Source of the DNA: a virus | DNA length: 54,633 nucleotides | IMG/VR virus record: IMGVR_UViG_3300046525_000020 | Location: 1 to 54,633 of that record | Direction: 5' to 3' (one strand) | Part shown: one piece after another, positions 6,213 to 52,985 of the stretch | Position numbering within the stretch: position 1 is the stretch's first letter | Layout of the letters: every line of letters starts with the position of its first letter | The notes under the pieces: generated by a model | The model's database searches: none | The model's input: the letters and a program-made list of their open reading frames with translations, nothing else | Told to the model about the DNA's origin: nothing | Position numbers and translations under genes: made by a program

Positions 6213-7222
6213 TTGGGATTGTATCCTTTAGTAGATAGGGCACGGCGAATCTCTTCATCAGAGCGGCCGGGATAACGTTGTTTCCATTGCTGCATAGACC
6301 AACCTGCATATGGGTCAGCAGCGGAAGCAGCAGAAGATGGAGCACTTGCAGCGCCTGGAACATTAAGAGCAGGAGCAGGACGTGAAGGAACAGTTGGAAG
6401 GTTTGTAGCAGCACCAAGTTCAACACCACCAGCCCTAGGTTGCGCACCGGCAGCACCCTTAGCGTCAATAACCTTCTGTGCGTATTGCTGACCAATTGGA
6501 GTCCAATAGGCTAGCTCACGTTGAATGTCTTGAGCTTCTTCTACAGTTTCAGCACTTTGCAACCTTAGGCCAAGCATGGCGAGATGGTTGCTAATTAGTG
6601 TGTCTGCCTTCTCGTAGTTGAGCTTGCCACTAGCAAGGGCATCCTGTAGAGATTGCGCTGCACCTGAGGTCTTAGACTTGTTATATTTACCAGCACCAAT
6701 ACGCAGATTCTCAAGTTCACGCTGTTGAGCACCAGTGGCATTAATAGCGTTAATCTGGTTACGACCTTGGTTGTCCTGTTCGAACTTCTTCTCAACCACA
6801 GATTTGGAATGTTCAATGATGTCCATACCTAGCTGACGAACCTTAGGATCAGGAGACCTTAGCCATTCTTCTGCCTGTAGCATCGCCTTTTTCTGTGCCA
6901 TTTCTTGGGGTTTAATGGCGTTCTCTGCATTCGTAGCTGTAATCTTCCCGTCCTGTGTTTGACGAGTGAACAGGTTGCTAAGTTCAGTGGCTTGATTGTT
7001 TAGCATCTTGCCCTGCGTTTCCACAGGAATCTGTTCATTCTCTAGCTGGCGTTGCTGAACCTTTAGGGGATTCATCTCATGGTTGAGGAACATATCTTGC
7101 AGTCCCTTGGCCTGATCTAGCATCTCCCCATTCTGTGCCTGATTGAACTGATCAAGTCCAAGCTGTGGGGCCAGCATACTCTGTTCCCCAAACAGCTGAC
7201 TTAGATTAGGAAAGTTTCCCAT
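6209..7222 (-). CDS. Internal virion protein candidate, helical
   Basis: This 337-residue protein is rich in Gln, Asn and Ala. The first 250 residues look like long helices (repeated Q-x-x-x-L-E patterns), followed by an Ala/Pro-rich linker and a short C-terminal domain ending W-S-M-Q-Q-W-K-Q-R-Y-P-G-R-S-D-E-E-I-R. That tail resembles the short W/Y-G-R motifs seen at the ends of phage ejection proteins. No membrane segment or enzyme motif is visible. It sits between two ejection-type proteins in a coupled set. Confidence 0.65.
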   Translation of the reverse strand: MGNFPNLSQLFGEQSMLAPQLGLDQFNQAQNGEMLDQAKGLQDMFLNHEMNPLKVQQRQLENEQIPVETQGKMLNNQATELSNLFTRQTQDGKITATNAENAIKPQEMAQKKAMLQAEEWLRSPDPKVRQLGMDIIEHSKSVVEKKFEQDNQGRNQINAINATGAQQRELENLRIGAGKYNKSKTSGAAQSLQDALASGKLNYEKADTLISNHLAMLGLRLQSAETVEEAQDIQRELAYWTPIGQQYAQKVIDAKGAAGAQPRAGGVELGAATNLPTVPSRPAPALNVPGAASAPSSAASAADPYAGWSMQQWKQRYPGRSDEEIRRALSTKGYNPK

Positions 7223-7230
7223 GATCGACC

Positions 7231-17600: not shown

Positions 17601-17760
17601 CTCCAGAAGGGATAACCAGCGGACTACCCGCTGTAAGTCCTAAACTGGAAATGTTGCCAGTGAAAGAACCCGGATAGTCATCTGGCCCAACGGGAGGAAC
17701 TCCGACAACAGGACTACGACTAGTCATCCTGTTGATAAATTTACGGAGTGCGGTGCCCAT
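14644..17760 (-). CDS. Giant tailspike with G8-like domain and CEMIP/TMEM2-type beta-helix
   Basis: The 1038-residue protein starts with a short anchor (to about residue 30). A G8-like beta module follows (G-E-N-W-L-L-D-V-N-T-P near 53-63, then T-S-L-T-A-L-Y-V-N-V), apparently interrupted by an Ig-like insert (about 120-215), resuming at G-G-Q-L-K-L-F-G and W-D-I-G-D-Q-V-V-I. Then comes G-R-Y-P-L-H-F-H-M (about 420-428), I-Q-L-H-G-C-M-G-V-E-V and H-A-F-N-L-E-D-G (about 488-495), the diagnostic blocks of the KIAA1199/CEMIP-TMEM2 family. The C-terminus carries H-T-Y-W-Y-D. The family includes hyaluronan-degrading proteins; here a polysaccharide depolymerase is inferred. Confidence 0.8.
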   Translation of the reverse strand: MGTALRKFINRMTSRSPVVGVPPVGPDDYPGSFTGNISSLGLTAGSPLVIPSGENWLLDVNTPALGAVTVAGGLYASLTQTTSLTALYVNVTSTGRYQCGTPTSRLPKAYTHTIECNNTEQGKVVAYSTWQTASSGGTGTLKAIWEGTGIDRAENYTVSFTGPSNFTVTGSSSGPLGSGTVGTAFNNKIHFVATGTFANGNTRTLTSQAKAFNNTGLTSRGFVVDDGGQLKLFGATKTDRCRLQATTGNTFAAGATALKVDSTPSNWDIGDQVVIGTTEYHQWGTGGTDQANCDARTLASTMTDVNMSISGGGLSRARWAVLQYVQQTADDIYGRNQGNISVTDTGYTTHQPTTPKVIDQRAWVINTTRNIKFQGPDDATWQATSTGRVGAHMMIMGRTDGKIKIDHVEFIRCGQRGRIGRYPLHFHMNSYEMPYGSGKPSNGVSKGAMTNTFVRGCAVNFSAQHGIQLHGCMGVEVSNTVTYNVAGHAFNLEDGSERRNSFTNCTAMQTIDMPDSTTLQLRKHEANAAGFWITNPDTDLSGCVSVRAVHGIWLSPAEACFGLSRDIAIRPSRLMHGTMSNQYSITSRDQGVLTGHIVSDELGTATGGSGYYWPTSDDGSTTLLFTLTGYQIYKSGSDAYTNRGGYPRYVNFITSDNYRTDFSGSITVGKIVNSLLVNKSVNLTNRNGGQPPTRRGMASYHYTLVPDGCLFIGFNATFPGDTVAPGSSAFNPDGKISGVEATGCSIGSDDLYMKAIEMGFVNIVNNKFLSSPVSVFSRTWDFRIKFTGQSAVNQSTSIAGAKWDPTGIITGTAGNYIVYNDAMYTYGATTNAIPDDPYSVHATPAQITPYGLKMYYNNSDPNKTAQYLAERMSTGTTVVGTWNVQNRDGVANGKDKMFIPCVKGGKIRVTLQSGRVPTTGFNFLIDNANTAADTTIIGVSWAGVNAHPQVYTLVGEHLNLDAYSDTGGVYSQLFSDSGITSLALLEASAGHTYWYDTANSVIWIKYKGGLTRQETMVDPEKSFNEWVYQQTNTICIKN

Positions 17761-19067
17761 TATGAAAGTCTAACCCATGTATTAGTAGCTACACAGCGTA
17801 GGTTCCAACCCTTGTATTGAGCAACGGTTGTTGTTACGTCTGCGTGTTGATTGATTGTTACTCCAGACCCAGCAGCAAATGCTACCGTGCCTGCTCCAAG
17901 ATTAATTCCATACAATGCATCCCCTGCAACATAGCCAGTAGGATCAACTGTTAGAGTAATTGGAGAAGCCGAGTTGGCTAGCACTTCCACATCACCATAA
18001 GTAGTTTTAGTCATGGTGGTATTGCCCGTCACTGTTAGTGGCGAGGGAATCTGTAGTGTGCTATCACCAACAACAAAGTTGGCAAACGACCCACCCCAAA
18101 TACCTGTGGTTGTGATTTGAACTGCGGTAGCTGTTCCTTGAGAATCACGAACAAGGATAACGTTAGGATCAAAAGTGCCTAATGGAATATTGGTTGTAGT
18201 GCCAGAAGCAACTGCACCAGATACTAGATTGGTTACGCTCCAAGTAACTCCGTAATTTGGATAGGTACGAGCCCAAATATCAATTTGATATGCAGCAGTT
18301 TCGTTACCATTTCCAGGGAAACCTGCGCCAAGGTCTTGGATGATTGTTGCGCCGTTAATCAGCTTTAGATTGAAGTCGCCGCCAGTGAGAGCAGGGTCAT
18401 ATGCAAAACCAAATCGGGTGCCAGTGTATGCATTAGGAGCAGTACCAGCAGCGGGAAGGTTTTGGGTAAGACCATAGAAACCTACAGCAGCGGCATTAGT
18501 ATCGTTAGGTGCCCAAGTACCTACATAACGAAACCCACCATACAGAGTAGTGCTGTTTTCTGGAAAACGAATCTTAGGTGAGGACGCAATACGAACATGC
18601 GAGTTGATTGCAGCCGCACTAGTCATACGTGCACGACCACGTTCGTTCCAACTATTGGTTGGGTTACCAGGACCTACGTTACCTGTAATGGCAGAACTGA
18701 CATAACTTGTGGTTGTCATGTTCGCACCAAACACAGAGAAGTTGGTAGTTGCTGGTGCAATCCACCAACTCTTACCATCAGACGGCTGACCTGTAACGTC
18801 TAGAAGACCTGGGTCAATTGTCACTGTGTTGCCTACACGTGAGGCATTAATGAACGTTAGAATAGACTCTTTACCCGCTAGCGCAGAATCTGTGTTTTCT
18901 TGAAACGTATTAAAGGCGTTAGTACCAACGAAGGCAGTAGCTGCGGCTTCACTTACTGGAAGCTTGTCGAGGGCTAGTCGAACAGTGCCTGTACCAGATC
19001 GCTTTACAACAATCTCGTCGGTAGTCTGTCCTGGGGCGCCATCTGTGTATGAACCAAACTGAGGCAT
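17760..19067 (-). CDS. Tail fibre / spike base protein
   Basis: The 435-residue protein has an N-terminal region (G-A-P-G-Q-T-T-D-E-I-V-V-K-R) of the type that mounts fibres on phage tails. A middle part is built of Thr/Asn/Gly-rich beta strands, including a probable lectin-like jelly roll (R-F-P-E-N-S-T-T-L-Y-G-G-F-R-Y-V-G-T-W), and a C-terminal 100 residues of short repeats ends W-V-R-L-S. It lies between capsid-associated genes and the G8 tailspike, so it may be the adaptor onto which that spike docks. No catalytic motif recognised. Confidence 0.65.
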   Translation of the reverse strand: MPQFGSYTDGAPGQTTDEIVVKRSGTGTVRLALDKLPVSEAAATAFVGTNAFNTFQENTDSALAGKESILTFINASRVGNTVTIDPGLLDVTGQPSDGKSWWIAPATTNFSVFGANMTTTSYVSSAITGNVGPGNPTNSWNERGRARMTSAAAINSHVRIASSPKIRFPENSTTLYGGFRYVGTWAPNDTNAAAVGFYGLTQNLPAAGTAPNAYTGTRFGFAYDPALTGGDFNLKLINGATIIQDLGAGFPGNGNETAAYQIDIWARTYPNYGVTWSVTNLVSGAVASGTTTNIPLGTFDPNVILVRDSQGTATAVQITTTGIWGGSFANFVVGDSTLQIPSPLTVTGNTTMTKTTYGDVEVLANSASPITLTVDPTGYVAGDALYGINLGAGTVAFAAGSGVTINQHADVTTTVAQYKGWNLRCVATNTWVRLS

Positions 19068-34044: not shown

Positions 34045-34355
34045 TGTGCAAACCACATAAGCATGCCGCACTCATCAAACTATGGGCAGATGGTGCGAAG
34101 ATTCAGTGGTTTCATGAAGCTGATGAAGAATGGAAAGACTGCACACCTACACCTAACTGGCTTGGCAATACAAACTATCGCGTCAAGCCTGAGCCTGTTG
34201 TGGTAGAATACAAGCGGTATATTTATAAGTTTAATAGTGACACACCGAAAGTATATATCGAATACAAGAATGAGTGTGCTTATCCGGAAAACTATAAACA
34301 TTTTGTAAAGTGGATTGATACTGAGTGGCAAACTATTGAGTTGGAGAATGAGTAA
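34044..34355 (+). CDS. Unknown phage protein, 103 residues
   Basis: The product has the order K-H-A-A-L-I-K-L-W-A-D-G-A-K-I-Q-W, then W-K-D-C-T-P-T-P-N-W and Y-R-V-K-P-E-P near residue 50. I know this K-L-W-A-D-G plus Y-R-x-K-P-E pattern from many phage early proteins. The second half is charged and aromatic (V-K-W-I-D-T-E-W). The biochemical role is not known. Confidence 0.7.
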   Translation: MCKPHKHAALIKLWADGAKIQWFHEADEEWKDCTPTPNWLGNTNYRVKPEPVVVEYKRYIYKFNSDTPKVYIEYKNECAYPENYKHFVKWIDTEWQTIELENE

Positions 34356-34659
34356 ACGCCATGTTGTCACTGCCACCATCTACGACAAATCCGGGAATGT
34401 ACTTTCCTGCCAGCAGAACAACTATTCCAAATCCCACCCCCTACAAGCCCGCTTTGCCGCATTGGTGGGACAACCCGAGCGCATCTATCTTCACGCCGAG
34501 ATTGCTGCATTAATTAGGTTAAAGAAGAATGATCGACCTTACCGCATCGCAATAGAACGCTACCACAGGAACGGCAGTGCTGCTAATGCCCGGCCCTGTG
34601 AAATATGTGAAGCAGCATTGAAACAATGGGGCATTAAACGTGTCGAATACACTCTATAA
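34348..34659 (+). CDS. Cytidine/deoxycytidylate deaminase-like protein
   Basis: The 103-residue protein carries H-A-E-I-A-A-L (about residue 48) and P-C-E-I-C-E-A-A-L (about residue 83). These are the zinc-binding His, the catalytic Glu and the two zinc Cys of the cytidine deaminase fold. Length is minimal for the fold. It could act on free (deoxy)cytidine nucleotides to feed dTTP synthesis with ThyX, or on a base in nucleic acid. ATG 34348 overlaps the previous gene's end. Confidence 0.75.
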   Translation: MSKRHVVTATIYDKSGNVLSCQQNNYSKSHPLQARFAALVGQPERIYLHAEIAALIRLKKNDRPYRIAIERYHRNGSAANARPCEICEAALKQWGIKRVEYTL

Positions 34660-35745: not shown

Positions 35746-36068
35746 TTACTCACATCGTAACCCTTGTGCATCCAAAGAAGTTGGTTCAGCGTAACACCTA
35801 CAATGAATTCAACGGCCGAGAAACGATTGCAGCAATGCATGCCCGCACTGTGGCTGATCCAGTGGAAAACTACAACAAAAACAATTTTCTAGACTTGCTG
35901 ACGTTCTACTTTGATAACGAACGTGATGCAAAGTATTTTGCAGAGTTTGCTGCGTCTGAGCGGCCCGGCATTGAAGTGTATGTAGCTGAGGCAAAGTTCA
36001 TTTACAATGTAGAGATTGGTGCACCTGTCGCCAAGAAAATCACAGATAAGGGAGTGCTGCCGGTATGA
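35742..36068 (+). CDS. MITH-type protein 3, unknown
   Basis: The 108-residue product starts M-I-T-H-I-V-T-L-V. The remainder differs from the other two: a helical acidic part with L-L-T-F-Y-F-D-N-E-R-D-A-K-Y-F-A-E-F-A, resembling a ferredoxin-like alpha/beta fold. ATGA overlaps on both sides. Function unknown. Confidence 0.6.
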   Translation: MITHIVTLVHPKKLVQRNTYNEFNGRETIAAMHARTVADPVENYNKNNFLDLLTFYFDNERDAKYFAEFAASERPGIEVYVAEAKFIYNVEIGAPVAKKITDKGVLPV

Positions 36069-36241
36069 AGTCAGGAACCGCTAAGGTAAACTGTGTTTGC
36101 AAGCATGAGTACCAAGACAAGGAACATGGTGCTGGTGTCCGCATTGCGAATGCAACACAAAAGGCCACAGACAAAACTGTAGACGTGCGCTGCACTGTTT
36201 GTGGTAAGATTCATACTGTTAATAAGGAACGAGTAAAGTGA
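36065..36241 (+). CDS. Zinc-ribbon protein, 58 residues
   Basis: ATG at 36065 overlaps the previous stop. The product has C-V-C-K-H-E-Y-Q-D-K at residues 10-19 and C-T-V-C-G-K near residue 46, the four Cys of a zinc ribbon. The middle G-A-G-V-R-I-A-N is also typical of a small phage zinc protein I have met before. Its stop overlaps the GTG of the amidotransferase gene, so it may be translated with the amidoligase cluster. Confidence 0.65.
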   Translation: MKSGTAKVNCVCKHEYQDKEHGAGVRIANATQKATDKTVDVRCTVCGKIHTVNKERVK

Positions 36242-36870
36242 CACGCCTAGTATCGGCATGCTTTAATGACTTCTTCCCATTTAATCAGCTTAAAGGAGTT
36301 GACAGCCACACCGCTACAGTAGAGCCTAAAACCCTACGCGAAGGGGACATTCTTCTGACGTGGGGAGGGGAAGACATTTCTCCTACTCTATATAAGCGGG
36401 CTGTTGGTAGGCGGTGTGGGGCAAATGATCGTCCTTCCCGCCGCGACAACATTGAATGGTCATTGATGCAACGTGCCTCTGAGCTTGGCATCCCAATTGT
36501 TGGGGTATGCCGTGGCGCACAGATGTTATGTGCCCATGCCGGTGGCTTTCTTATCCAAGATGTTCGGGGCCATGCTACTGGTCATCCGCACACTGCAACC
36601 ACTGATGAGGGTATTGAGATTGTTGTAAACAGCTACCACCATCAAATGCTTTACCCGTTCGAGGTAGAGCATGAAATGTGGGCAGAATGTAAGGACGCAC
36701 TGAGTCCCTACCATCTAGACGTAGATACAGACATTCCTGTGCCCACTGAAACAGAGATGGTGTATTTCCCCAAGGTGAAAGGCTTTGCTGTACAATGGCA
36801 TCCTGAATGGATGGATGACGACTGCAACGCCACTCAATTTATGATTAACAAAATTAATGCATACCTATGA
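36238..36870 (+). CDS. Class I glutamine amidotransferase-like hydrolase (peptidase C26 type)
   Basis: The 210-residue protein has the catalytic triad of class I GATases: Cys in V-G-V-C-R-G-A-Q-M (about residue 95), and H-P-E in V-Q-W-H-P-E-W near the C-terminus. L-T-W-G-G-E-D-I-S-P is the oxyanion-side G-G motif and V-N-S-Y-H-H-Q the C26 signature. Members cleave gamma-glutamyl bonds or supply ammonia from glutamine. It starts with GTG, overlaps the next gene, and opens the amidoligase cluster, so it may edit or feed that pathway. Confidence 0.82.
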   Translation: MTRLVSACFNDFFPFNQLKGVDSHTATVEPKTLREGDILLTWGGEDISPTLYKRAVGRRCGANDRPSRRDNIEWSLMQRASELGIPIVGVCRGAQMLCAHAGGFLIQDVRGHATGHPHTATTDEGIEIVVNSYHHQMLYPFEVEHEMWAECKDALSPYHLDVDTDIPVPTETEMVYFPKVKGFAVQWHPEWMDDDCNATQFMINKINAYL

Positions 36871-37601
36871 GCCTCGAAACTTACGTTGGAAATCTATTCC
36901 ATGCTGAAGTAAACATCACTACTCAGCGAAAGAGCGACAGTCTTGGCACTAGCTGTGCTGGTCAGGTCGGCCGCCTAGTGGTGCTGCCTAATGCGACAAA
37001 TGTCATCGTGGAAACAGCCCCACGTGATGAAGTTGTAGAGAAAGTGGAAGGCGCAGAACGCTATGAAGTGTTTAGTAAGTCTGTTAAACTAGACCAAGAC
37101 TATGCCAACATTCGCTTTACAAAGGTTGTCGATTTCGAAGCACCCAAGGTCATTGGAGAATGGCAATACACTGATCTATCTGACAAAGAAGAATTCAAGT
37201 GGATGCATGAGATTAATCAGCGTAAACTTAAAACCTTCGCCAATCGCAAACGCCCTAAACCACAGCGAGACAAACTAAGCTACATCTATGTAAATGGTTG
37301 GCTGAGTGCTTACAGGCGAAACAATCATACAGATTGGGGTGTTCCATTCAATGGAGAGCCTAAGAAATATTCGCAGGAAGAAGTAGTTGAGGAACTAAAG
37401 AAACAAATTAAGGGTAAGTTTTTCTTCACGATTCTTAATAACGATACTCGTAGAGAATTTGGTGGCAAGCCCATCCTTGAAGATGCCAAGCAACTATTTC
37501 ATACACTTGGTATGGAAGCCCTGTATGAAAGCGATAAGTACAACAATCGCATTCATGAAGGCGTCACTAATTATCTCACCACAATTGTTCTGAAAGGCTA
37601 G
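36867..37601 (+). CDS. Unknown protein of the amidoligase cluster (1)
   Basis: The 244-residue protein overlaps the amidotransferase stop and ends two bases before the ligase gene, so it is part of the cluster. The N-terminal half has beta-type sequence and the C-terminal part has Y-V-N-G-W-L-S-A-Y-R-R-N-N, then helical E-E-V-V-E-E-L-K-K-Q-I-K-G. No catalytic motif or signal is recognised. A substrate protein or adaptor of the ligases is possible. Confidence 0.65.
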   Translation: MSLETYVGNLFHAEVNITTQRKSDSLGTSCAGQVGRLVVLPNATNVIVETAPRDEVVEKVEGAERYEVFSKSVKLDQDYANIRFTKVVDFEAPKVIGEWQYTDLSDKEEFKWMHEINQRKLKTFANRKRPKPQRDKLSYIYVNGWLSAYRRNNHTDWGVPFNGEPKKYSQEEVVEELKKQIKGKFFFTILNNDTRREFGGKPILEDAKQLFHTLGMEALYESDKYNNRIHEGVTNYLTTIVLKG

Positions 37602-37603
37602 TC

Positions 37604-38374
37604 ATGCAATTCATCATTGGCGCTGATCCTGAGGTTTTCGTTGGCGATAAGACCGGGGTGCGGTCGATCATTGGCAAGATTGGTGGCACTAAAGCCAACC
37701 CTATGCCACTGCCACTAGGCGAAGGCTTTGCTGTACAGGAGGATAATGTTGCTCTTGAATTCAACATTCCCGCTTCAAAGTCAAAGCAGGAGTTTGTTGG
37801 CAACATTCGAGAAGCAACCGCGTTTCTGGAAAAAGTGGTATCTGACCAATACGGATTTAACTTCGTTAAGGACAGTGCTGTTTCGTTCCCTGATGAGGAA
37901 CTACAAGACCCTGCTGCACTAGAGTTTGGTTGTGAGCCTGACTTCAATGCATGGACACTAGAGGTAAATCCCAAGCCTAAGGCAGAGGATGCCAACCTCC
38001 GCTCATGTGGTGGGCATGTGCATGTTGGCTTTAAGAAGATGGACATTGCCAAGGTGATTAGGACAATGGACCTATACCTAGGCGTGCCTAGTGTTAAGAT
38101 GGACAAGGGAGAGCTACGCAAGAAACTATATGGTAAGGCGGGTGCCTACCGTAAGAAAAAATATGGTGGCGAATATCGCACGCTAAGTAACTTCTGGATT
38201 TTTGAATCCAAACTTGTTGAATGGGTGTATGACAATACCGAGCGCGCGCTGGATGCAGTGAAGGCGGGTATCGACATTTCAAACGAGAAGGAAGCCATCC
38301 TAGACGCGATTAATAACAATAATCACGTTGCTGCCGACTACCTCATCAATCGCTACAATCTGTCTGTACTATGA
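37604..38374 (+). CDS. COOH-NH2 ligase type 2 (phiEco32-like amidoligase)
   Basis: The 256-residue protein fits the phage COOH-NH2 ligase family of the glutamine synthetase fold (PF14395): G-A-D-P-E-V-F at residue 6, E-D-N-V-A-L-E-F-N-I near 46, and C-G-G-H-V-H-V-G-F near 139, whose His and Glu residues would bind Mg-ATP. Later R-T-L-S-N-F-W completes the pattern. Such enzymes join a carboxylate to an amine through an acyl phosphate. It is the third gene of the cluster. Confidence 0.8.
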   Translation: MQFIIGADPEVFVGDKTGVRSIIGKIGGTKANPMPLPLGEGFAVQEDNVALEFNIPASKSKQEFVGNIREATAFLEKVVSDQYGFNFVKDSAVSFPDEELQDPAALEFGCEPDFNAWTLEVNPKPKAEDANLRSCGGHVHVGFKKMDIAKVIRTMDLYLGVPSVKMDKGELRKKLYGKAGAYRKKKYGGEYRTLSNFWIFESKLVEWVYDNTERALDAVKAGIDISNEKEAILDAINNNNHVAADYLINRYNLSVL

Positions 38375-38979
38375 AAGAACAATTCACAAGCGACGGCTAC
38401 AAGGATTTTCGTCAACGGTATGAGGGCACCTTTGGCTATTACACCACAGAAACTAACAAGCGTCTGCTGGTGCAAGTGACAGAGGTCAATCCTGTTGAGA
38501 TGAAGTTTGTAGACCGCAATCGTGGCGACTATGTGGCCCTTAGTGATAAGGGGCATGTGTTTGAATTCGTCGCTCCTGTCAAGCGTCTGTTTGATATGCG
38601 CGGTCGAGTAGCCCTCATTATCCGCAAGCCTGCAAAGCAATATCAACGTGGCATTTCTGCATCCAACACACAAGTAGTTTTGCTGGATACTGGCACTGTG
38701 CTTGCGCCATCCTTCAACAATCTTTCATGTGCTTTCACAGATGATGGCTTCAATAAGCAGAAGTTCGCAGAATATGTGGACGGTAAGCGTGAGCAAGTTG
38801 TGCTGTCACGTATGATTGCGCTGGTAAGGGACGATGTGTTTCTGTATAATGCCATTGTTGGCACGGTCGATCGTCAAACAAAAACTTTCAAGTGTGCTCC
38901 TATGTTCAAGCAGGAAGTGTCAGACTGTGTGCGTGATCTAGCTCTTGACTTTAATGTAGAGGTTATTAATGCAGATTAA
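38371..38979 (+). CDS. Unknown protein of the amidoligase cluster (2)
   Basis: The 202-residue protein lies between two ligase genes with overlaps on both sides. It has beta-type segments in the first half (R-L-L-V-Q-V-T-E-V-N-P, Y-V-A-L-S-D-K-G-H-V-F-E-F-V) and a helical end. No recognised motif. Conservation of this place in related phages would show whether it is a carrier or substrate. Confidence 0.6.
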   Translation: MKEQFTSDGYKDFRQRYEGTFGYYTTETNKRLLVQVTEVNPVEMKFVDRNRGDYVALSDKGHVFEFVAPVKRLFDMRGRVALIIRKPAKQYQRGISASNTQVVLLDTGTVLAPSFNNLSCAFTDDGFNKQKFAEYVDGKREQVVLSRMIALVRDDVFLYNAIVGTVDRQTKTFKCAPMFKQEVSDCVRDLALDFNVEVINAD

Positions 38980-40237
38980 TAAGTTGTATGGTGTTGGCAA
39001 CGTCGCCCATCTGATGCTAAATGATGCCAATTACACGATTGGTGCAACACCAATGGTGATGCCTGAACTAGTGGTTGGTCTTGAACTAGAGATGGAAGGC
39101 TATCCTGAGGGAGACCTAGAAACAAACGATCTGTTCACAGTGGAACAGGATGGCAGTCTGCGTAATGGTGGCATTGAGGCAATTACTCGGCCCACCAAGG
39201 CTAAGTTTGTTGAGTGCCTACTTGGGTCCTTCTTCGCAGATAATCAGACAACTGAGGCCAACTACTCCGATCGGTGCTCTACTCATGTGCATGTGAATAT
39301 GCAAGACATGACACTGGATCAGGTGCGAAGCATCGCTCTGGTATACCAAACCGTAGAACGTCTGCTGTTTGAGGCGTTCATTGGTGAGGCACGGGAGAAC
39401 AACATCTATTGTGTTCCCTGGTATCAGGCAGGCTTCACCACTGCGTCAATGGACAAGCTCATTGCCAACTTCGACCTCAACATTCGCACATGGGTTAAGT
39501 ACACAGCACTAAACATGCTGCCACTACGTGAGCGTGGCACCATTGAATTCCGCCATCTACGTGGTACGTGCGATGTAGCAGAGATTATTAAGTGGATTAA
39601 TCTCATCTCCTGCATTGTCAAGTATGGCAGCACTGTGCCCTATGACGAGATTGCTACCTCAATCAAGGGGATGAACACTGACTCCACGTATGAAGGCTTC
39701 CTTCGTGCAGTGTTTGGTGAGCATGCTGATGTGTTTGCTGCTCTGCCAAACTACCAAGAAACTCTGGCCTATGGTGTGGTGGATAGCAAGATGATGCTGC
39801 TACAGATTGGCAAGAAGCAAGCAGTAAAGGCAGCGGAAGAAGAAGTACCTAATTTTAATTGGGCTCAGGCAAGACAGGCATTACAGGCATACGAGGCTCG
39901 TGGACGCCCTGCACCAGCAGCGGATGATGTTTTCCTAGTTATCCCAACCGTTGACAATCCTGGAGATGGCCAAATCTGGACACAACAGATGAGAGACATT
40001 GCAGCGGCTTATATGCGGGCTTATCCAACGCATGACATTGGACGAGCCATCACTTATGCACGTACAGTGTATGCGGCACCTGACCCTGCAGATGCTGCAC
40101 TAATGCCTGAGCCTGCTCCTGCACGTGAGATTAATTATGTAGCTCCACGTCCTGATCGCATTGGTCCTGCTATTGATCAAGCTGCGGCTCGTCTTGCTAA
40201 TGCTCGTCCTGCTCCCCGTCCTGCCCGTCGTCGTTAA
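38969..40237 (+). CDS. Amidoligase (PF12224-like) with Ala/Pro-rich tail
   Basis: The 422-residue protein has amidoligase motifs in order: V-G-L-E-L-E-M-E near residue 35, Q-D-G-S-L-R-N-G-G-I-E-A near 61, C-S-T-H-V-H-V-N near 109, and T-I-E-F-R-H-L-R-G-T near 191. Together they make the ATP- and Mg-binding site of a glutamine synthetase-like ligase. Beyond residue 290 it has a low-complexity Ala/Pro/Arg tail ending P-A-P-R-P-A-R-R-R, absent from the core family, perhaps for binding DNA, the envelope or a partner. Confidence 0.82.
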   Translation: MQINKLYGVGNVAHLMLNDANYTIGATPMVMPELVVGLELEMEGYPEGDLETNDLFTVEQDGSLRNGGIEAITRPTKAKFVECLLGSFFADNQTTEANYSDRCSTHVHVNMQDMTLDQVRSIALVYQTVERLLFEAFIGEARENNIYCVPWYQAGFTTASMDKLIANFDLNIRTWVKYTALNMLPLRERGTIEFRHLRGTCDVAEIIKWINLISCIVKYGSTVPYDEIATSIKGMNTDSTYEGFLRAVFGEHADVFAALPNYQETLAYGVVDSKMMLLQIGKKQAVKAAEEEVPNFNWAQARQALQAYEARGRPAPAADDVFLVIPTVDNPGDGQIWTQQMRDIAAAYMRAYPTHDIGRAITYARTVYAAPDPADAALMPEPAPAREINYVAPRPDRIGPAIDQAAARLANARPAPRPARRR

Positions 40238-40246
40238 GGAATAAAT

Positions 40247-41455
40247 ATGTGTGGACTAGTTGGTGTAATTAATAAGCTTAAGAATGGTTTTCTGGATAAG
40301 CAGCTAACCATCTTTGAGAATCTGCTGTATATTGATGCGATGCGTGGAGAGGACAGCACAGGGGCATTCCTTGTCACCACTCTAGGCAACGTATACATTG
40401 CAAAGGAAGCCGAGGAAAGTACATATTTTTTGAAGGATCAAGCATGGGCAGACATACGTTCAAAAGCTTTCGCTAGTGGATGGGGTCTCATTGGTCACAA
40501 CCGCAAGGCAACACGCGGGTCGATCACTGACCAAAACGCTCACCCATTTTGGGTGGATGACAAGCTAGTGCTGGTACACAATGGCAGCCTAGTTGGTGAC
40601 CATAAGCACCTAGCAGATGTCACTGTAGACAGCGAAGCCATTGCCCATGTACTAGCCAAGGAGCCTGATCCTGAGAAGGCTCTTAAGCAGATTAATGGTG
40701 CCTATGCGCTCATCTGGTATGACGTAGAGAATAAGAAGATGAACATCATTCGGAACAACGAGCGTCCGTTGTTCTGGATTGAAACAGACAATGCTTTCTA
40801 CTTCGCATCAGAGAATGCCATGCTCTACCTAGCTCTGTGGCGCAACGGAGTTAAGGCAATTAATAAGGACGGCATTGCAGAGATTTTCGCAGAGCACAGT
40901 CTGTCTGAATTTTACATGGACGGTAAGATTGTCAACACACAGCTAGACTGCAAGTATGTTGCTCCACCAACCCCGTTATCTGTAGTCGATTGGCGGCAAA
41001 TTGCACGTGATTCAATTGATGCATGTGCCCTGCCAGGGGATGTGCAGGATGTTGTAGATATGTCTCAAGTTAAGGACATCTCACCGGGCGCTGAGGTGCG
41101 CCCAGCAACCTTTTCAGCATGGCAAAATCTGCGAGAGGCACGTTACCCAAAGGGGCGCATGGTCAAGGTTATCGTCAATGATTACCACTGGGATATCAAC
41201 GATAAGCACAGCGATGTGTTCCTTATGGGCCACACAGTAGATGATGCACGGGCTTTCGTAGTGGTGCAGGCAGACAAGAGGGAGATTCGTCGTCTTGCCG
41301 ACACTGTGCGAAGTGGTGAGGCTCTATTTAATGTGGTTATTGAGAACTGTGGGTGGGCTCCTGACCGTAAGGGAGTATCAATCACTCCCAACACTCCTGG
41401 GCATATTCGCATTGTTAGCAGTAAGTATTTCAATCTAATGGAGACACAGCAATGA
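40247..41455 (+). CDS. Class II glutamine amidotransferase (GAT-II)
   Basis: The 402-residue protein starts M-C-G-L-V-G-V-I, so Cys2 becomes the N-terminal nucleophile. Other GAT-II marks are M-R-G-E-D-S-T-G-A near residue 33, G-H-N-R-K-A-T-R-G near 84, and V-H-N-G-S-L near 109. The last 150 residues form an extra domain with no synthetase signature. It should release ammonia from glutamine, or transfer a gamma-glutamyl group, for the neighbouring ligases. AAGGA precedes the start. Confidence 0.85.
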   Translation: MCGLVGVINKLKNGFLDKQLTIFENLLYIDAMRGEDSTGAFLVTTLGNVYIAKEAEESTYFLKDQAWADIRSKAFASGWGLIGHNRKATRGSITDQNAHPFWVDDKLVLVHNGSLVGDHKHLADVTVDSEAIAHVLAKEPDPEKALKQINGAYALIWYDVENKKMNIIRNNERPLFWIETDNAFYFASENAMLYLALWRNGVKAINKDGIAEIFAEHSLSEFYMDGKIVNTQLDCKYVAPPTPLSVVDWRQIARDSIDACALPGDVQDVVDMSQVKDISPGAEVRPATFSAWQNLREARYPKGRMVKVIVNDYHWDINDKHSDVFLMGHTVDDARAFVVVQADKREIRRLADTVRSGEALFNVVIENCGWAPDRKGVSITPNTPGHIRIVSSKYFNLMETQQ

Positions 41456-42150
41456 AGAAGATCGTTGTTTCATCCCCCAACATCAAGAGTGCTGCACTAA
41501 AGGAACTAGCAAATGAACTCTCTATTCGTCTTGGTTATCGTGTCTTTCGTGTTCGTCCTGAACGCGTTCGGCGGCGTCGTGCTGTTAATTTCCAAACTGG
41601 AATCGACAAGGTGGTTCAATTCACTAAGTTTCATGAAGCAGGCGTTTCTAGTCCTAAATATTGTGTGTCTGTGGATGGTATTGATTCTTTCACTACTCGG
41701 CTGGTGGTTGGGCGTACTCTAATCAATAGCAGCGAGGGTAAGGGCATTGTCATCTTTGACAAAGGAGAAGCCCCTCCTAAGGCCCCCCTATATACAGAAT
41801 ATATTCCGAAGAAGAAAGAGTTTCGTGTTCATGTGTGGGACTCTAAGGTTATTGACATTGTAGAAAAGAGGCGCCGCCGTGGTGTGGAGAAAAAGGAATT
41901 CCAAGTTCGCAACACAGCTAATGGGTATGTGTTTTGTCGGGACAATGTTACCCCTCCTGGCGATTGTGCTGCTGTCGCTCTATCTGCTGTCGCGGCTTTG
42001 GGCCGCACTTACGGCGCAGTTGACATCATTTGGAACGAGAAGCAAGACAAATGCTACGCACTTGAAGTGAATAGCCGTCCTGGCATGCAGGGCACCACTG
42101 TTCAGAAGTATGCTGATGCAATTATGGAGAATCTAAATGCCGTGCTATGA
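41452..42150 (+). CDS. ATP-grasp ligase
   Basis: The 232-residue protein has ATP-grasp features of the RimK type: a basic N-terminal lobe, Y-T-E-Y-I-P-K-K-K-E-F-R-V-H-V at about residue 115, and a C-terminal metal site A-V-D-I-I-W-N...L-E-V-N-S-R-P-G (about 195-215) with Asp, Glu and Asn for Mg. It would add an amino acid or peptide to a carboxylate. It overlaps the amidotransferase stop by ATGA and closes the cluster. Confidence 0.82.
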   Translation: MKKIVVSSPNIKSAALKELANELSIRLGYRVFRVRPERVRRRRAVNFQTGIDKVVQFTKFHEAGVSSPKYCVSVDGIDSFTTRLVVGRTLINSSEGKGIVIFDKGEAPPKAPLYTEYIPKKKEFRVHVWDSKVIDIVEKRRRRGVEKKEFQVRNTANGYVFCRDNVTPPGDCAAVALSAVAALGRTYGAVDIIWNEKQDKCYALEVNSRPGMQGTTVQKYADAIMENLNAVL

Positions 42151-42451
42151 TGATCGCGATAATATTCGTTATGTAGAAACTGAAAAAGAACATGACGGTA
42201 AGATGGCTGCTCGCCTATGTGCTGTATTCACCGTGCTAGAGGCAAAGGGAACCCTGATGCAAACCCTTAAGGAGGCTTCGTGGCCTGAGGCTGGAGTCAC
42301 TGCAAAGGGTACGCTCCGCTGGTGGGAAGATCACAAACGCCTTGATCTAGAACGTAAGCGACGCGAACGTGAAGATCGTGAACGTTATCGTGATAAGCAA
42401 AACGCACTGAAGAAACTTACACCAGCCGAACGAAAGGCACTAGGACTATAA
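42137..42451 (+). CDS. Unknown phage protein with long charged helix
   Basis: The 104-residue product begins M-P-C-Y-D-D-R-D-N-I, a start I recognise from small phage proteins, and then M-A-A-R-L-C-A-V-F-T-V-L-E. The second half is a highly charged helix (R-K-R-R-E-R-E-D-R-E-R-Y-R-D-K). It overlaps the ATP-grasp gene by 14 bases and abuts the next gene. Function unknown. Confidence 0.65.
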   Translation: MPCYDDRDNIRYVETEKEHDGKMAARLCAVFTVLEAKGTLMQTLKEASWPEAGVTAKGTLRWWEDHKRLDLERKRREREDRERYRDKQNALKKLTPAERKALGL

Positions 42452-42681: not shown

Positions 42682-42749
42682 ACCATCCTCTTGACGGCTG
42701 GCTTCGGTGTAAGATTCCCATGAAGAAAAAGGAAAAGAAATGTGGCTAA
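42678..42749 (+). CDS. 23-residue basic peptide before the primase
   Basis: ATG at 42678 overlaps the previous stop, and its own stop lies eight bases inside the primase gene. The peptide has two Cys and a Lys-rich tail (K-K-K-E-K-K-C-G). It probably couples translation of the primase; an independent role is uncertain. Confidence 0.4.
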   Translation: MNHPLDGWLRCKIPMKKKEKKCG

Positions 42750-45833: not shown

Positions 45834-47010
45834 AGGGGAATCAAAAATAATTGGGACGCTAGATTTAGAGACTACGACCAGCAACCACGGCAACCCCTAC
45901 GACACAAGCAACTACATTGTCTGTGTACAAACAAAACGAGAGGATGAAACTACTCTATGCCAATTCTATGATGAACCTGATTGGAAAACTAAAACACGCG
46001 AGTTTCTGGCTAACACTACCCTATTGGTCGGCCAGTCTATTAAGTTTGATTTGGCTTGGCTTCGTAACCACGAGCTTTCTCCTGCCCCTGGCTGTCGCAT
46101 TTGGGACACTCAGCTTGCTGAATTTATTCTTTCTGGTCAAACGAATTCCTTCGCGTCACTCAACTCACTCCTCGATCTATACGGTTTGGGAACGAAAGAA
46201 GAAGCAGTGGCCGAATATTGGAAAAATGGAGTAGACACCCCTGACATTCCTAGAGAAGTTCTTTCTAGCTATGGCATTCGTGATGTGGATGCTACTCGCT
46301 TGGTTTACCAGCACCAGCTAAAAGACCCACGTATGACTCCCGCATTACACAAATTAATTATCCTATGCGGGCTTGACCTCCTAGTGCTCATGGAGATGGA
46401 GCACAACGGCATGCTGTATGACAAGGAGGGATCACTTAAAGAGGCCGAGAAACTGGGCCTAGAAATTAAGGCACAAGAAGATGAACTACATGGTGTCGCT
46501 GGTCGCAGCTTTAACATTGATTCTGGTGATCAGCTTTCCTGTTTCCTATACGGCGGTACAATCGAAGAGGATGTGTTCCTCCCCGTTACCAAAGTGTATA
46601 AGTCTGGCCCCAGGAAGGGACAGGAGTATGTAAGGAATGAGTATCAACAAACTAACACACACGTATTCCCTGGATACTTTCGGCCCCTCAAAGGCACAGA
46701 ACTGGCTAAATCAACACCTGCAAAACCTTTTTATCAGACAGGTGATGAAGTGCTACAACAACTCGCCGCCCGTACAAAAGTTCAGCGCAGGATACTCGAA
46801 CTACTCCGTTCACGGTCTAAGCTTGAAAAGCTTGTGGGGACTTACCTCTCTGCTCTGCCTAAAATGTGTGATGCGTTTAACTGGGGGAGTGTCGTACACG
46901 GGCAGTTCAACCAAGTCGTTGCACGAACTGGGCGACTGAGCAGCAGCAAACCCAACATGCAGAATGCTCCTGCACAGGTAGACCAATTTTTCATTACACG
47001 ATATGACTGA
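45832..47010 (+). CDS. polA: DNA polymerase I, N-terminal fragment (3'-5' exonuclease and thumb)
   Basis: About 392 codons in frame from 45832 to the TGA at 47008. The proofreading exonuclease motifs are all present: T-L-D-L-E-T-T (Exo I, with D and E), V-G-Q-S-I-K-F-D (Exo II) and Y-G-I-R-D-V-D (Exo III). A thumb region and the pre-motif A block T-G-R-L-S-S-S-K-P-N-M-Q-N-A-P follow. It ends F-I-T-R-Y-D just before motif A. No ATG, GTG or TTG lies upstream of the exonuclease motif; TTG 46024 is inside the domain. It is thought to work with the second fragment at 47179. Confidence 0.88.
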   Translation, partial: EGESKIIGTLDLETTTSNHGNPYDTSNYIVCVQTKREDETTLCQFYDEPDWKTKTREFLANTTLLVGQSIKFDLAWLRNHELSPAPGCRIWDTQLAEFILSGQTNSFASLNSLLDLYGLGTKEEAVAEYWKNGVDTPDIPREVLSSYGIRDVDATRLVYQHQLKDPRMTPALHKLIILCGLDLLVLMEMEHNGMLYDKEGSLKEAEKLGLEIKAQEDELHGVAGRSFNIDSGDQLSCFLYGGTIEEDVFLPVTKVYKSGPRKGQEYVRNEYQQTNTHVFPGYFRPLKGTELAKSTPAKPFYQTGDEVLQQLAARTKVQRRILELLRSRSKLEKLVGTYLSALPKMCDAFNWGSVVHGQFNQVVARTGRLSSSKPNMQNAPAQVDQFFITRYD

Positions 47011-47179
47011 AAAAGAAGCTAGAGAACTCCTAATTGAGTCTGGTGTTGACAATGGGCTAGGTCATTATGAAGATGGCAAGCTGCAAACAGCAATCACTTC
47101 ATATGACGAGCTAGCAGTTTTAATTGACCTCGCATGGCAAAAGGGGTATGAGGAAGCCTATAATGACTACAACCATTAA
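47003..47179 (+). CDS. 58-residue acidic ORF inserted between the two polymerase genes
   Basis: ATG at 47003 overlaps the end of the first polymerase fragment and the TAA overlaps the ATG of the second, so all three are coupled. The product is acidic and helical (E-K-E-A-R-E-L-L-I-E-S-G-V, then A-W-Q-K-G-Y-E-E-A-Y). It has no homing endonuclease motif and no family I recognise. It could hold the two halves together or be the remnant of an inserted element. Confidence 0.6.
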   Translation: MTEKEARELLIESGVDNGLGHYEDGKLQTAITSYDELAVLIDLAWQKGYEEAYNDYNH

Positions 47180-47952
47180 TGCTGATTAACTGTGACGTCA
47201 AGGGGCTAGAGGTTGTAGTTGCTGCACAGCTATCTGGCGATAAGGTGCTTAGTCAGGAAATTAAAGACCAAGTAGATATTCATGAGACAAATCGTAGTAC
47301 ATTCGATCTTGGTGGCAAAGCGGCTTACGCCGGCGAGACAGAGGCTGAAAAAGCAGCCCGTAAGGCCGGGCGTCTGGTCGCAAAGATTTTCAAGTTTCGC
47401 CTCATCTATGGTGGCAGTGCGTACTCCTATGCACACGATCCCGATTTCATGGGTGTGTCCACATCTGAGCAGTTCTGGCAGGAAATCATTGACCGTTATT
47501 ACGCCAAATACTACGGTGTCGCAGCATGGCACAAGGAGATTGTCAAGGAAGCGCAAGACAAGGGACGACTCAGCATTCCGTCAGGCCGCTACTATCCTTT
47601 CCCGCCAGAGCGAGACTTCCGAGGAAACATCAAGTGGCCTATTACCAAAATCAAGAACTACCCAGTTCAAGGCTTTGGTGCAGACCTTGTGATGCTTGCA
47701 CGACTCGAAGCAAGCAAGCGACTGAAAGCCTCTGGCCTAGAGTACAAGCTCGTATCCACAATCCATGACTCGATTGTTGTTGACACGACAGATGCAAACT
47801 GGTATACTATTAGTATGGTCCTTAAAGATTGTGTTGAAGCAGTGCCGGCGCTCTGCAAGCAAGTGTGGGGATACGACTTTAGTTTGCCGCTGACATGCGA
47901 AGTGCAACGTGGCATGAATAAAAAAGACATGCAAGAAGTAGTTTTCAATTAA
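47179..47952 (+). CDS. polA: DNA polymerase I, C-terminal fragment (palm and fingers)
   Basis: The 257-residue protein starts M-L-I-N-C-D-V-K-G-L-E, which is motif A with the catalytic Asp at residue 6. Motif B follows (R-K-A-G-R-L-V-A-K-I-F-K-F, then Y-G-G), and motif C S-T-I-H-D-S-I-V-V-D near residue 197 has the second catalytic Asp; Ser replaces the usual Glu after it. It is in the same frame as the first fragment but separated by 168 bases. Both parts together give a complete T7-type family A polymerase without 5' nuclease. Confidence 0.9.
   Translation: MLINCDVKGLEVVVAAQLSGDKVLSQEIKDQVDIHETNRSTFDLGGKAAYAGETEAEKAARKAGRLVAKIFKFRLIYGGSAYSYAHDPDFMGVSTSEQFWQEIIDRYYAKYYGVAAWHKEIVKEAQDKGRLSIPSGRYYPFPPERDFRGNIKWPITKIKNYPVQGFGADLVMLARLEASKRLKASGLEYKLVSTIHDSIVVDTTDANWYTISMVLKDCVEAVPALCKQVWGYDFSLPLTCEVQRGMNKKDMQEVVFN
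47780..47808 (+). promoter_or_regulatory. Internal rightward promoter (3)
   Basis: TTGACA (47780-47785), 17-base spacer, TATACT (47803-47808) with TGG before it. A near-consensus promoter inside the polymerase gene, placed to drive SSB, exonuclease and the nucleotide metabolism genes. Confidence 0.78.
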
Positions 47953-49244: not shown

Positions 49245-49381
49245 AAGGTCTCATCAATAAGAAGTATTGGAAAATCATTCAAAACTATTATGGTGATAAG
49301 CAGAAGGCGCTTGATTCTGCATACCGACACAATCTAGAAGAGGGCTGCATCCTGCCCTATACGGAAACTGTAATTGGCTGA
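49151..49381 (+). CDS. Unknown protein overlapping the exonuclease end
   Basis: A frame with ATG at 49151 (another at 49079) ends at 49381, overlapping the exonuclease gene by 94 bases. The product has W-R-V-V-E-R-N-Y-G-D-F-K-H-Y-H-L-E-G-L-I-N-K-K-Y-W and Y-R-H-N-L-E-E-G-C-I. The part beyond 49244 is clearly protein-like and no other gene covers it. The exact start is uncertain. Function unknown. Confidence 0.55.
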   Translation: MVVADNGRYVANSPVWRVVERNYGDFKHYHLEGLINKKYWKIIQNYYGDKQKALDSAYRHNLEEGCILPYTETVIG

Positions 49382-49742
49382 GTGGACAGATGGACGCAAA
49401 CATGGGTTCATCGTTGCTGTGTTGCGGGCAGGCACTAGACGCTGGCCCCCTAAGTATGAAGCTCTGAACGACGCCAAGACAGAAAAGAAAAAGAACGTGA
49501 AAACCGGGCGCATTGCACAGCACTATGTGTGCGCCCAATGTACAGAAGAATTTACTTCTACCAACATTCAAGTGGATCACATTACTCCTGTTGTTGACCC
49601 TAAGAAGGGGTTCAAAGATTGGAATACCTACATCCCTCGTCTGTTCTGTGGAAAGGACAACCTACAAGTGCTATGCGTAGGCTGTCACAAGGAAAAGACA
49701 GCAAAGGAAAAGAGTGAAAGTAACCGTAAAAGCAAAAAATGA
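49374..49742 (+). CDS. HNH endonuclease
   Basis: The 122-residue protein starts with TTG at 49374. It has a zinc-type HNH module: C-A-Q-C near residue 52, V-D-H-I-T-P-V near 68, N-L-Q-V-L-C-V-G-C-H near 97 and a Lys-rich end. An N-terminal helix region (F-I-V-A-V-L-R-A-G-T-R-R-W-P-P-K-Y) matches phage HNH proteins of replication modules. It may process DNA branches or be mobile. It lies directly behind the exonuclease. Confidence 0.82.
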   Translation: MAEWTDGRKHGFIVAVLRAGTRRWPPKYEALNDAKTEKKKNVKTGRIAQHYVCAQCTEEFTSTNIQVDHITPVVDPKKGFKDWNTYIPRLFCGKDNLQVLCVGCHKEKTAKEKSESNRKSKK

Positions 49743-51378: not shown

Positions 51379-51563
51379 CCGGCCGCAAGACACGCAAAGA
51401 AGTAGATAATGAAGACCGACATGGACGCAAGCGTTTCATTGAGCGGCAAATTCAGGACAACCTAGCAAAGAAAGAAATTGAAGAATATGACGACTATTGC
51501 CTCGACGACTCCATCGATCGTGACGCCATCAATGACCGCCTCCGTGAACTACGAAAATATTGA
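51375..51563 (+). CDS. Small charged protein, 62 residues
   Basis: ATG at 51375 overlaps the previous stop. The product is highly charged: a basic N-terminus (T-G-R-K-T-R-K-E) and an acidic end (E-E-Y-D-D-Y-C-L-D-D-S-I-D-R-D). Its 3' end shares bases with the MazG-like gene. Function unknown. Confidence 0.55.
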   Translation: MTGRKTRKEVDNEDRHGRKRFIERQIQDNLAKKEIEEYDDYCLDDSIDRDAINDRLRELRKY

Positions 51564-51867
51564 TAGTTACCAAGAGAAGATCAAGGACTTCCGTCTACCA
51601 TCGTATGGGAGTGAGGCTGCTGTTATGGGCCTGCTTGCTGAAAGCGGCGAAGTTGCTGCTGTGTTTCAGAAACTACTTCGTGGAGACTATGACATGGATA
51701 CGGCAGCGACTAAGTTGCATTATGAACTAGGCGATATTCTTTGGCACGTAGCTGCCATTGCAGAAGACAATGGCTGGAAGATTTCAAAGCTTCTGCAAAG
51801 CAATGTTGACAAGCTAGAGAGTCGTCGTCTTCGTAATCAAATCCTTGGAAGTGGAGACAATCGATGA
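51532..51867 (+). CDS. MazG-like nucleotide pyrophosphohydrolase
   Basis: The 111-residue protein has the all-alpha NTP pyrophosphatase pattern: G-L-L-A-E-S-G-E-V-A-A-V-F-Q-K near residue 30 and H-Y-E-L-G-D-I-L-W-H-V-A-A-I-A near 63, giving the E-x-x-E and E-x-x-D Mg site. It may remove non-standard dNTPs or ppGpp. An ATG at 51487 would add 15 residues that look like an out-of-frame copy of the neighbour, so 51532 is preferred. Confidence 0.75.
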   Translation: MTASVNYENIDSYQEKIKDFRLPSYGSEAAVMGLLAESGEVAAVFQKLLRGDYDMDTAATKLHYELGDILWHVAAIAEDNGWKISKLLQSNVDKLESRRLRNQILGSGDNR

Positions 51868-51944
51868 AAGAATCATTTCTGCTTCTTTCTCCCATTATCC
51901 TTGCGCTACTCCTAACCGTCCTCGCGTGCATTAAAAAGAAATGA
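51864..51944 (+). CDS. 26-residue membrane peptide
   Basis: ATG at 51864 overlaps the MazG-like stop, and the TGA overlaps the ThyX start. The product is one hydrophobic helix (F-L-L-L-S-P-I-I-L-A-L-L-L-T-V-L) followed by A-C-I-K-K-K. It should sit in the inner membrane. The V-L-A-C sequence recalls a lipobox, but only four residues follow. Function unknown. Confidence 0.5.
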   Translation: MKESFLLLSPIILALLLTVLACIKKK

Positions 51945-52657
51945 ACATTGCGCAACAAAGCGTTGAACTGATTGACTATATGGGCAGCGATCTTAGTGTG
52001 GTTAATGCTGCCCGTGTTAGCTTTCAGAAGGAAAGCGATTGGGACATTGATACTATCCAAGGTGCTGAACCACACATTTATGAGAATGTCAAGGTTCTTT
52101 CTGAGCAAGACCAGAAGCTTATTCGCTACCTTGCTACGCACAACCATTGGACGCCGTTTGCTCATGCCTTTCTAAGCTTCCGCATTAAGGCTCCCATCTT
52201 CGTGGCTCGCCAATTGGTTAAGCATCAAGTTGGTCTTGCTTGGAATGAGGTTAGCCGTCGCTATGTGGACGATGAGCCAGAGTTTTATTTTCCTCCTATT
52301 TGGCGTAAGCGAGCAGAGAACGTAAAGCAAGGCAGCAGTGATGAGCCAGTAGATGATTGGTCAGTTGATTGGGCACATGGAGAAGCACTCTATCCAGAAA
52401 CACTTACTAAGGCGGCTCTACGCACCTACACTGAAATGCTGTTTGCTGGTGTAGCTCCTGAGCAGGCACGTATGGTGCTGCCACAGAATACAATGACAGA
52501 ATGGGTCTGGTCAGGTAGTCTTGCAGCATTCGCACGGGTTGTGTCTCTGCGAATCGATCCACATGCACAAAAAGAAACACAAGAGGTTGCATGGCATATC
52601 AATGCTCTAGTACCTACTGAATTCACACACTCATGGAAGGCTCTCGTTGGTATCTGA
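51941..52657 (+). CDS. thyX: Flavin-dependent thymidylate synthase
   Basis: The 238-residue protein has the ThyX signature as K-H-Q-V-G-L-A-W-N-E-V-S-R-R-Y near residue 88, a variant of R-H-R-x-x-S-x-N-E-x-S-x-R-Y, plus N-A-A-R-V-S near 24 and Q-A-R-M-V-L-P near 168. It makes dTMP from dUMP using FAD, NADPH and methylene-tetrahydrofolate. It acts with the deaminase-like protein and the reductase to supply DNA precursors. A homing endonuclease gene overlaps its end. Confidence 0.92.
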   Translation: MNIAQQSVELIDYMGSDLSVVNAARVSFQKESDWDIDTIQGAEPHIYENVKVLSEQDQKLIRYLATHNHWTPFAHAFLSFRIKAPIFVARQLVKHQVGLAWNEVSRRYVDDEPEFYFPPIWRKRAENVKQGSSDEPVDDWSVDWAHGEALYPETLTKAALRTYTEMLFAGVAPEQARMVLPQNTMTEWVWSGSLAAFARVVSLRIDPHAQKETQEVAWHINALVPTEFTHSWKALVGI

Positions 52658-52985
52658 ACAATATCTAGCAGGCTTCTTTGATGGAGAAGGCACATTCTAT
52701 ATTGGCAAACAGTTTAAGAATGGTAAGGAATATCCTAAGGCAACTGTGATGCTGTCGCAGTCTGGTTATGAGGGGATGCTGCTTCTTGAAGAAATTCAAA
52801 AGCAGTATGGTGGTAGTTTGTATCAACATCTAAAGGCTGGTGAGCACAAGGCCACTAAAGATGCCTATAAACTCTGGTGGCCTAAGGACGAAGCTATTGA
52901 GCTTTGTCAAAAGCTTATTCCTCATCTCAAGCTTAAACAACAAGCAGCACAGACAGTGCTGGCATATCTAACAAGGAATCAATGA
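52647..52985 (+). CDS. LAGLIDADG homing endonuclease, single motif
   Basis: The 112-residue protein has Y-L-A-G-F-F-D-G-E-G-T-F at residue 6-17, the LAGLIDADG helix with its catalytic acidic residue, followed by the beta strands and helices of one repeat (A-T-V-M-L-S-Q-S, W-W-P-K-D-E-A). One motif means it acts as a homodimer. The TTG start lies in the end of thyX, and its TGA overlaps the reductase ATG, so it is a free-standing homing gene between two nucleotide genes. No intron or intein is seen there. Confidence 0.85.
   Translation: MVSEQYLAGFFDGEGTFYIGKQFKNGKEYPKATVMLSQSGYEGMLLLEEIQKQYGGSLYQHLKAGEHKATKDAYKLWWPKDEAIELCQKLIPHLKLKQQAAQTVLAYLTRNQ

Follow-up and report, generated by a model that had tools for sequence, protein, structure and literature searches.

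The viral contig IMGVR_UViG_3300046525_000020, analyzed over its whole length of 54,633 nucleotides (nt) and called the window here, carries a putative amide-ligase cassette of seven tightly packed plus-strand genes at positions 36238-42150. A sequence-only reading of the same DNA had placed a seven-gene block there, and all seven open reading frames (ORFs) were found; they occupy 10.8% of the window, which agrees with the proposed share of over a tenth of the genome. Adjacent cassette genes overlap by 4-11 nt or are separated by 2-9 nt, and the block belongs to a longer series of small coupled genes, with an upstream ORF (36065-36241) overlapping its start by 4 nt and another (42137-42451) overlapping its end. 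The cassette lies just upstream of replication genes, a primase-like gene at 42742 and a DnaB-like helicase gene at 44450. The seven genes, with the short names used below and product lengths in amino acids (aa), are the following.

36238 to 36870, plus strand: C26, class I glutamine amidotransferase / peptidase C26 (210 aa, GTG start), a predicted gamma-glutamyl-amide hydrolase.
36867 to 37601, plus strand: X, an orphan protein (244 aa), coding by codon usage.
37604 to 38374, plus strand: CN, phiEco32-like COOH-NH2 ligase type 2 (256 aa; PF14395, phrog_3815).
38371 to 38979, plus strand: Y, a conserved cassette protein with no recognized enzyme domain (202 aa; held-out profile, predicted fold).
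38969 to 40237, plus strand: AL, Amidoligase_2 (422 aa; PF12224, phrog_7469).
40247 to 41455, plus strand: G2, class II glutamine amidotransferase of the N-terminal nucleophile (Ntn) type, with an N-terminal Cys2 (402 aa; PF13522, phrog_4736).
41452 to 42150, plus strand: AG, RimK-like ATP-grasp ligase (232 aa; phrog_2599, RimK profile match).

Pfam, PHROGs and NCBIfam agreed on the five functions that had been named from the sequence, and alignments with 30-38 relatives per family showed that the expected catalytic residues are kept in the window. C26 matched PF07722 (Peptidase_C26, 8e-19) and phrog_7218 (9.4e-30), and its triad C91, H188 and E190 was identical in 30/30 relatives. Both amidoligase-type proteins scored above the Pfam cut-off: CN matched PF14395 (8.6e-12) and phrog_3815 (2.9e-79), with E10, E52, H138, H140 and R192 conserved, and AL matched PF12224 (7.6e-10) and phrog_7469 (1.2e-35), with a catalytic part at about residues 1-290 and E39, E41, E43, E70, H106, H108, R142, E193 and R195 conserved; no solved structure was found by sequence with either profile. 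G2 matched GATase_6 (PF13522, 2.3e-17) and phrog_4736 (1.6e-59), conserves C2, R86, N112, G113 and D128, and has a C-terminal extension of about 200 aa without an assigned role. In AG, where K53, R125, K139, D191, E205 and N207 are conserved, the predicted ATP-grasp identity is weak by Pfam alone (single-sequence RimK score of 16.9 bits, under the cut-off of 21) but firm by PHROGs (phrog_2599, 1.3e-39) together with the family profile run against solved structures in PDB, which found RimK 5zct (2.3e-11) and then D-Ala-D-Ala ligase. Since none of the seven proteins has a strongly hydrophobic stretch, their chemistry is probably cytoplasmic. No match to known defense-system proteins was found. 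These matches and alignments showed that the block encodes members of three ATP-dependent amide-bond ligase families (CN, AL and AG), a class II amidotransferase and C26, all with their conserved catalytic residues intact, together with Y.

The same set of genes is widespread among phages. Searches by tblastn of 50,697 phage records returned relatives of CN in 308, of AL in 320 and of AG in 208, all below 60% identity, and a CN scan of viral contigs gave 32 loci. Among these 32 loci and six reference phages, nearly all untruncated relatives carry all five enzyme families, most commonly in the order C26-CN-Y-AL-G2-AG and in some cases with G2 before CN or with AG relocated, so the comparison of gene order that had been proposed found it kept in many related phages. 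The proposed podovirus affiliation also fits, as the best matches of the portal protein include the "head to tail connecting protein" of podovirus-like phages, the closest being that of Alcaligenes phage QDWS535 (57.6%). A "seven-gene peptidoglycan modification cassette" has already been published for RIO-1, phiEco32, LUZ24/PaP3, tf, PA11 and CW02 (PMC5498523), and the annotated RIO-1 genes 8-14 are this cassette. Homology and gene order confirmed the window block as a complete, divergent member of it. The link to phiEco32-type ligase sets was supported, and the earlier reading made the cassette more novel than it is. By contrast with this abundance in phages, 84,980 species genomes yielded just 14 CN relatives in a scan that detects close relatives and not distant ones. 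All 14 are in contigs of metagenome-assembled genomes (MAGs), and most of the contigs long enough to judge carry the same cassette; this hints at a pathway that is viral and not cellular. Separately, in one MAG contig (L053, about 4136-7330) the CN matches fall in three separate ORF pieces, which suggests a broken or interrupted gene.

By position and profile, the protein between the two amidoligase-type genes, Y, is a conserved cassette family and not an orphan. Its codon usage is that of a real gene in the correct frame only, yet the window protein has no significant family match of its own in Pfam, PHROGs or NCBIfam; the family lacks a Pfam entry, and phrog_11055, a family without an assigned function, was matched by 13/20 relatives and not by the window Y. 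Loci with CN followed by AL have a similar-sized ORF in between, and Y was recognized there in 35/36 first-set loci with both ligases and in all 11 of the later-fetched loci with CN then AL, two of which (L040 and L041) are related to training members. A profile built without the window found the window Y at an E value of 1.1e-27, three loci outside the training set (L013, L023 and L031) matched at 7e-36 to 1e-27, and RIO-1_12 matched as well. Structure prediction, proposed earlier for both unknown proteins, worked for this one: the AlphaFold model is confident (predicted local distance difference test [pLDDT], 91.4; predicted template modeling score [pTM], 0.83), and its best structural matches among viral models are uncharacterized phage proteins, with CW02 protein H9D1D2 (190 aa) matched at 1.3e-8; the size of H9D1D2 is that of CW02 gp8, located between CN and AL. 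In the predicted model, residues 6-69 form a small, possibly SH3/Sm/Tudor-like barrel that resembles Hfq, MscS and Tudor domains, the best match, Hfq, having a Z score of 7.7 over 56 residues (root mean square deviation of 2.1), a value below 8 that is too low to demonstrate kinship and may reflect just a common arrangement. At residues 85-94 lies the motif R-x-P-x-[RK]-Q-[WY]-x-R-G, with R85, P87 and G94 near-invariant. The most economical reading of this model is that Y acts as an adaptor without catalysis of its own. The Y of SU10 (SU10_087) has a mass of 23.28 kDa, matching a 23.3-kDa early protein given as CDS86 in the published Table 2 on SU10; as the numbering disagrees, this entry was not counted as a detection of Y.

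The second recurrent feature concerns the cleavage of gamma-glutamyl bonds. C26, the gamma-glutamyl cyclotransferase GGACT or both were present in 35/35 whole records searched, with one record (G002) counted by a C26 gene cut at its contig end only. GGACT was found in 6/6 records without C26 (G009, G019, tf, 7-11, Rembedalsseter and SU10) and in 6/29 with it, an association that is significant by record (Fisher p 0.0006) and when four lineages replace the six records (p 0.005). In RIO-1, outside the 35 records, GGACT is annotated and the stretch examined shows no C26; in the window no GGACT was found, C26 alone being present. GGACT was not taken as defining the cassette because most relatives, as well as PA11 of the published list, have C26 without GGACT. 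The C26 and GGACT folds are unrelated; because both families include known enzymes for gamma-glutamyl amides, a gamma-glutamyl intermediate is the likeliest common point. Additionally, the NCBIfam model nearest to the window C26 is gamma-glutamyl-CDP-amidate hydrolase (NF045546, 1.2e-9), an enzyme that takes the gamma-glutamyl group off an N-linked intermediate. The earlier proposal of a hydrolase acting on gamma-glutamyl bonds thus gains support from the C26 family, from this nearest model and from the C26/GGACT replacement among relatives. As a candidate for NF045546 itself the window protein was rejected, scoring 38.6 bits against a cut-off of 250.

Considering the whole of this evidence, we regard it as probable that the block is a complete phiEco32/RIO-1-type cassette whose enzymes join amides and trim gamma-glutamyl groups. 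In the cytoplasm of the infected cell, G2 would release ammonia from glutamine, and CN and AL would activate carboxylates and couple them to ammonia or an amine, with at least one of these steps yielding a gamma-glutamyl amide. AG would add an amino acid to a carboxylate end, and its likeness to RimK would suggest glutamate; the gamma-glutamyl group would then be taken off by C26, or by GGACT in other phages. Y, a predicted small beta-barrel encoded between two ligases, may keep the enzymes or the substrate together. The target would most likely be a soluble host precursor made early or mid infection, perhaps a cell-wall peptide, and the main alternative a protein C-terminus, although we suggest either only tentatively. 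Peptidoglycan modification and superinfection exclusion have been published as a hypothesis (PMC5498523, PMC10580990), and the latter work restates the cell-wall idea while leaving the functions to be explored. As for timing, PaP3 ORF22-56, including its cassette genes, are middle genes in the final classification (PMC4707531), PaP3 p43-p48 being the homologues named in the tf record. Mass spectrometry of a concentrated SU10 preparation detected the homologues of AG, G2 and GGACT, which were assigned to the early class (PMC4281155); this shows expression, not virion membership.

Several observations weigh against this explanation. We found no report in the literature of a cassette product, substrate or mutant phenotype, and G2 could be a hydrolase instead of an ammonia source. 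No sequence feature links the product to the cell wall, and the resemblance to RimK points equally to protein C-termini; with RimK nearest to AG and D-Ala-D-Ala ligase next, the sequence favors neither a cell-wall precursor nor a protein C-terminus. Few independent lineages underlie the C26/GGACT test, and not every GGACT-family or C26 protein is a gamma-glutamyl enzyme. Regarding Y, the left-out test of its profile gave weaker matches for the LUZ24- and phiEco32-like proteins (tf, 1.2e-3; 7-11, 1e-7), and Y is not universal, as none was detected in one locus with the order CN-AG-G2-AL (L016).

Among the other explanations, protein modification survives best, and we consider it possible though clearly less probable than the explanation above. 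Here AG would extend a C-terminus or side chain in the fashion of RimK, CN and AL would amidate or cap the tail, and Y would be the adaptor or the substrate, the target being either a phage protein or a ribosomal or transcription protein of the host. The solved relatives nearest to AG are RimK and alpha-L-glutamate ligases, but D-Ala-D-Ala ligase and cyanophycin synthase also match it, and the similarity to RimK does not fix the substrate. Folds like the one predicted for Y are frequent in modules that bind proteins or RNA, and the model weakly matches the N-terminal Tudor-like tandem of RapA, which binds RNA polymerase, at a Z score of 6.8; again, values below 8 are possibly merely a common arrangement, and Y has no conserved acceptor tail. 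The early or middle expression of the cassette genes is consistent with such a role. It appears unlikely that the cassette makes or detoxifies a small gamma-glutamyl amine such as a polyamine conjugate, as the Puu/Spu pathways do. C26 belongs to the PuuD-type family, its nearest solved relatives include 7d4r/7d50/7d53, which we take to be SpuA of Pseudomonas aeruginosa, and a gamma-glutamyl-cleaving family occurs in every cassette checked; however, the genes scanned within or next to the block showed no Puu/Spu oxidase, aminotransferase or transporter, and three ligases exceed the needs of such a pathway. A phage-specific protein tagging system, in which Y would serve as a dedicated adaptor and present a protein of the host or the phage to the RimK-like enzyme and the amidoligases, with gamma-glutamyl intermediates trimmed by C26 or GGACT, must be considered quite unlikely as well.

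We give little credence to Y or X as a peptide carrier for the product, comparable to LysW or acyl carrier protein, although the sequence-only reading had suggested that both unknowns may be carrier or substrate and Y lies nearly always between two ligases. Y is well folded, with 180-200 residues, and its C-terminus is variable, with no conserved acidic tail and no residue in common among the Y proteins. This is evidence against a carrier of the LysW/Pup type. X, for its part, is not retained in relatives. Finally, hypermodification of the phage genomic DNA by amide bonds, as by CmoY on 5-carboxymethylcytosine, is highly improbable despite the known amide ligation onto phage DNA (PMC12783734) and the adjoining replication genes, since Rembedalsseter has the ligase set (CN-Y-AL-G2-AG-GGACT) and native-DNA nanopore sequencing revealed nicks only and no modification motif (PMC11780129), a kind of motif finding that could miss a uniform or weakly signaling change, and since the window has no cytosine-5 methylase (PF00145) and no asparagine-synthase domain (PF00733). 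The nick motif of tf-like phages was not enriched in the window (1 match versus 1.8 expected).

Codon usage supports X as a real gene, in the correct frame only. It had no significant family match in Pfam, PHROGs or NCBIfam and no detectable relative in the 50,697 phage records, the viral contigs or 26 related records, so X is not a standard cassette part; its fold, predicted without relatives, was unusable (pLDDT, 36). The unknowns that other phages carry in the interval from C26 to CN, or ahead of CN, fall into several small groups, none matching X. In QDWS535, two weakly related unknowns lie between C26 and CN (L002, 3192-4485), with faint relatives in L020, L027 and L023. Another accessory family is formed by tandem related unknowns just after the cassette in L003 (7180-8519) and L015 (10841-12236), with single homologues in L032 and L037. 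The Arg/Pro-rich AL tail, described earlier as unusual, is a lineage trait: from about residue 295 it is Pro/Arg/Ala-rich and variable, common to the close relative L008 and partly to L022, absent in many relatives, whose AL stops shortly past the catalytic domain, and acidic in others. This variation places it outside the catalytic machine.

Elsewhere in the window, the family A DNA polymerase (46024-47952) is split, at the polymerase core. The first ORF ends at 47010 with ...QVDQFFITRYD and a stop, and the second starts with (M)LINCDVKGLEVVVAAQLSGDK at 47179 in the same frame; the roughly 170 nt in between contain in-frame stops, and a small ORF in another frame (about 57 codons by eye) runs from the end of the first into the start of the second. 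No Rfam intron was found between them; introns between two DNA polymerase parts have been reported for the LUZ24-like phage UFV-P2 (PMC3890496). Two HNH endonuclease genes (49374-49742 and 52647-52985) in the replication region are possibly homing endonucleases. Nucleotide metabolism is represented by dCMP-deaminase-like, MazG-like and FAD-dependent thymidylate synthase ThyX genes (34315-34659, 51478-51867 and 51941-52657, respectively), and two large late-region proteins of 1427 and 435 aa (1929-6212 and 17760-19067, minus strand) had no PHROGs match.

About 300 deposited phages, many of Pseudomonas and E. coli, devote several kilobases to this pathway. The cassette itself was already known, and the main contribution of the window is a divergent, complete example; the additions made here are the recognition of Y as a conserved cassette component, the exchange of C26 and GGACT between relatives and an argument against DNA modification. 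The place of Y in the core set and this exchange together shift the expected chemistry towards gamma-glutamyl amides and define a set of proteins for reconstitution.

Compared with known systems, RIO-1-like podoviruses (RIO-1_8 to _14; PSA-HP1) carry the class II amidotransferase, CN, Y (RIO-1_12), AL and AG in one run, as the window does, and in RIO-1 the cassette adjoins primase/helicase and DNA polymerase genes, as the window cassette likewise lies beside replication genes. RIO-1 differs in having GGACT in place of C26, an extra small protein (RIO-1_11), a longer CN and its amidotransferase before CN, whereas in the window G2 follows AL and the orphan X is present. The phiEco32 / 7-11 / SU10 and LUZ24 / PaP3 / tf / Rembedalsseter groups share the order CN-Y-AL-G2-AG with the window; unlike it, they have GGACT in the same genome and no C26 was found in them, and their cassettes show two other unknowns before CN, a longer AG and a much diverged Y. 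Alcaligenes phage vB_Af_QDWS535 (OK172329) has the same order as the window, C26-unknown-CN-Y-AL-G2-AG, but it also has GGACT, its AL is without the long tail, and no relation to X was detected for the unknowns that it carries between C26 and CN.

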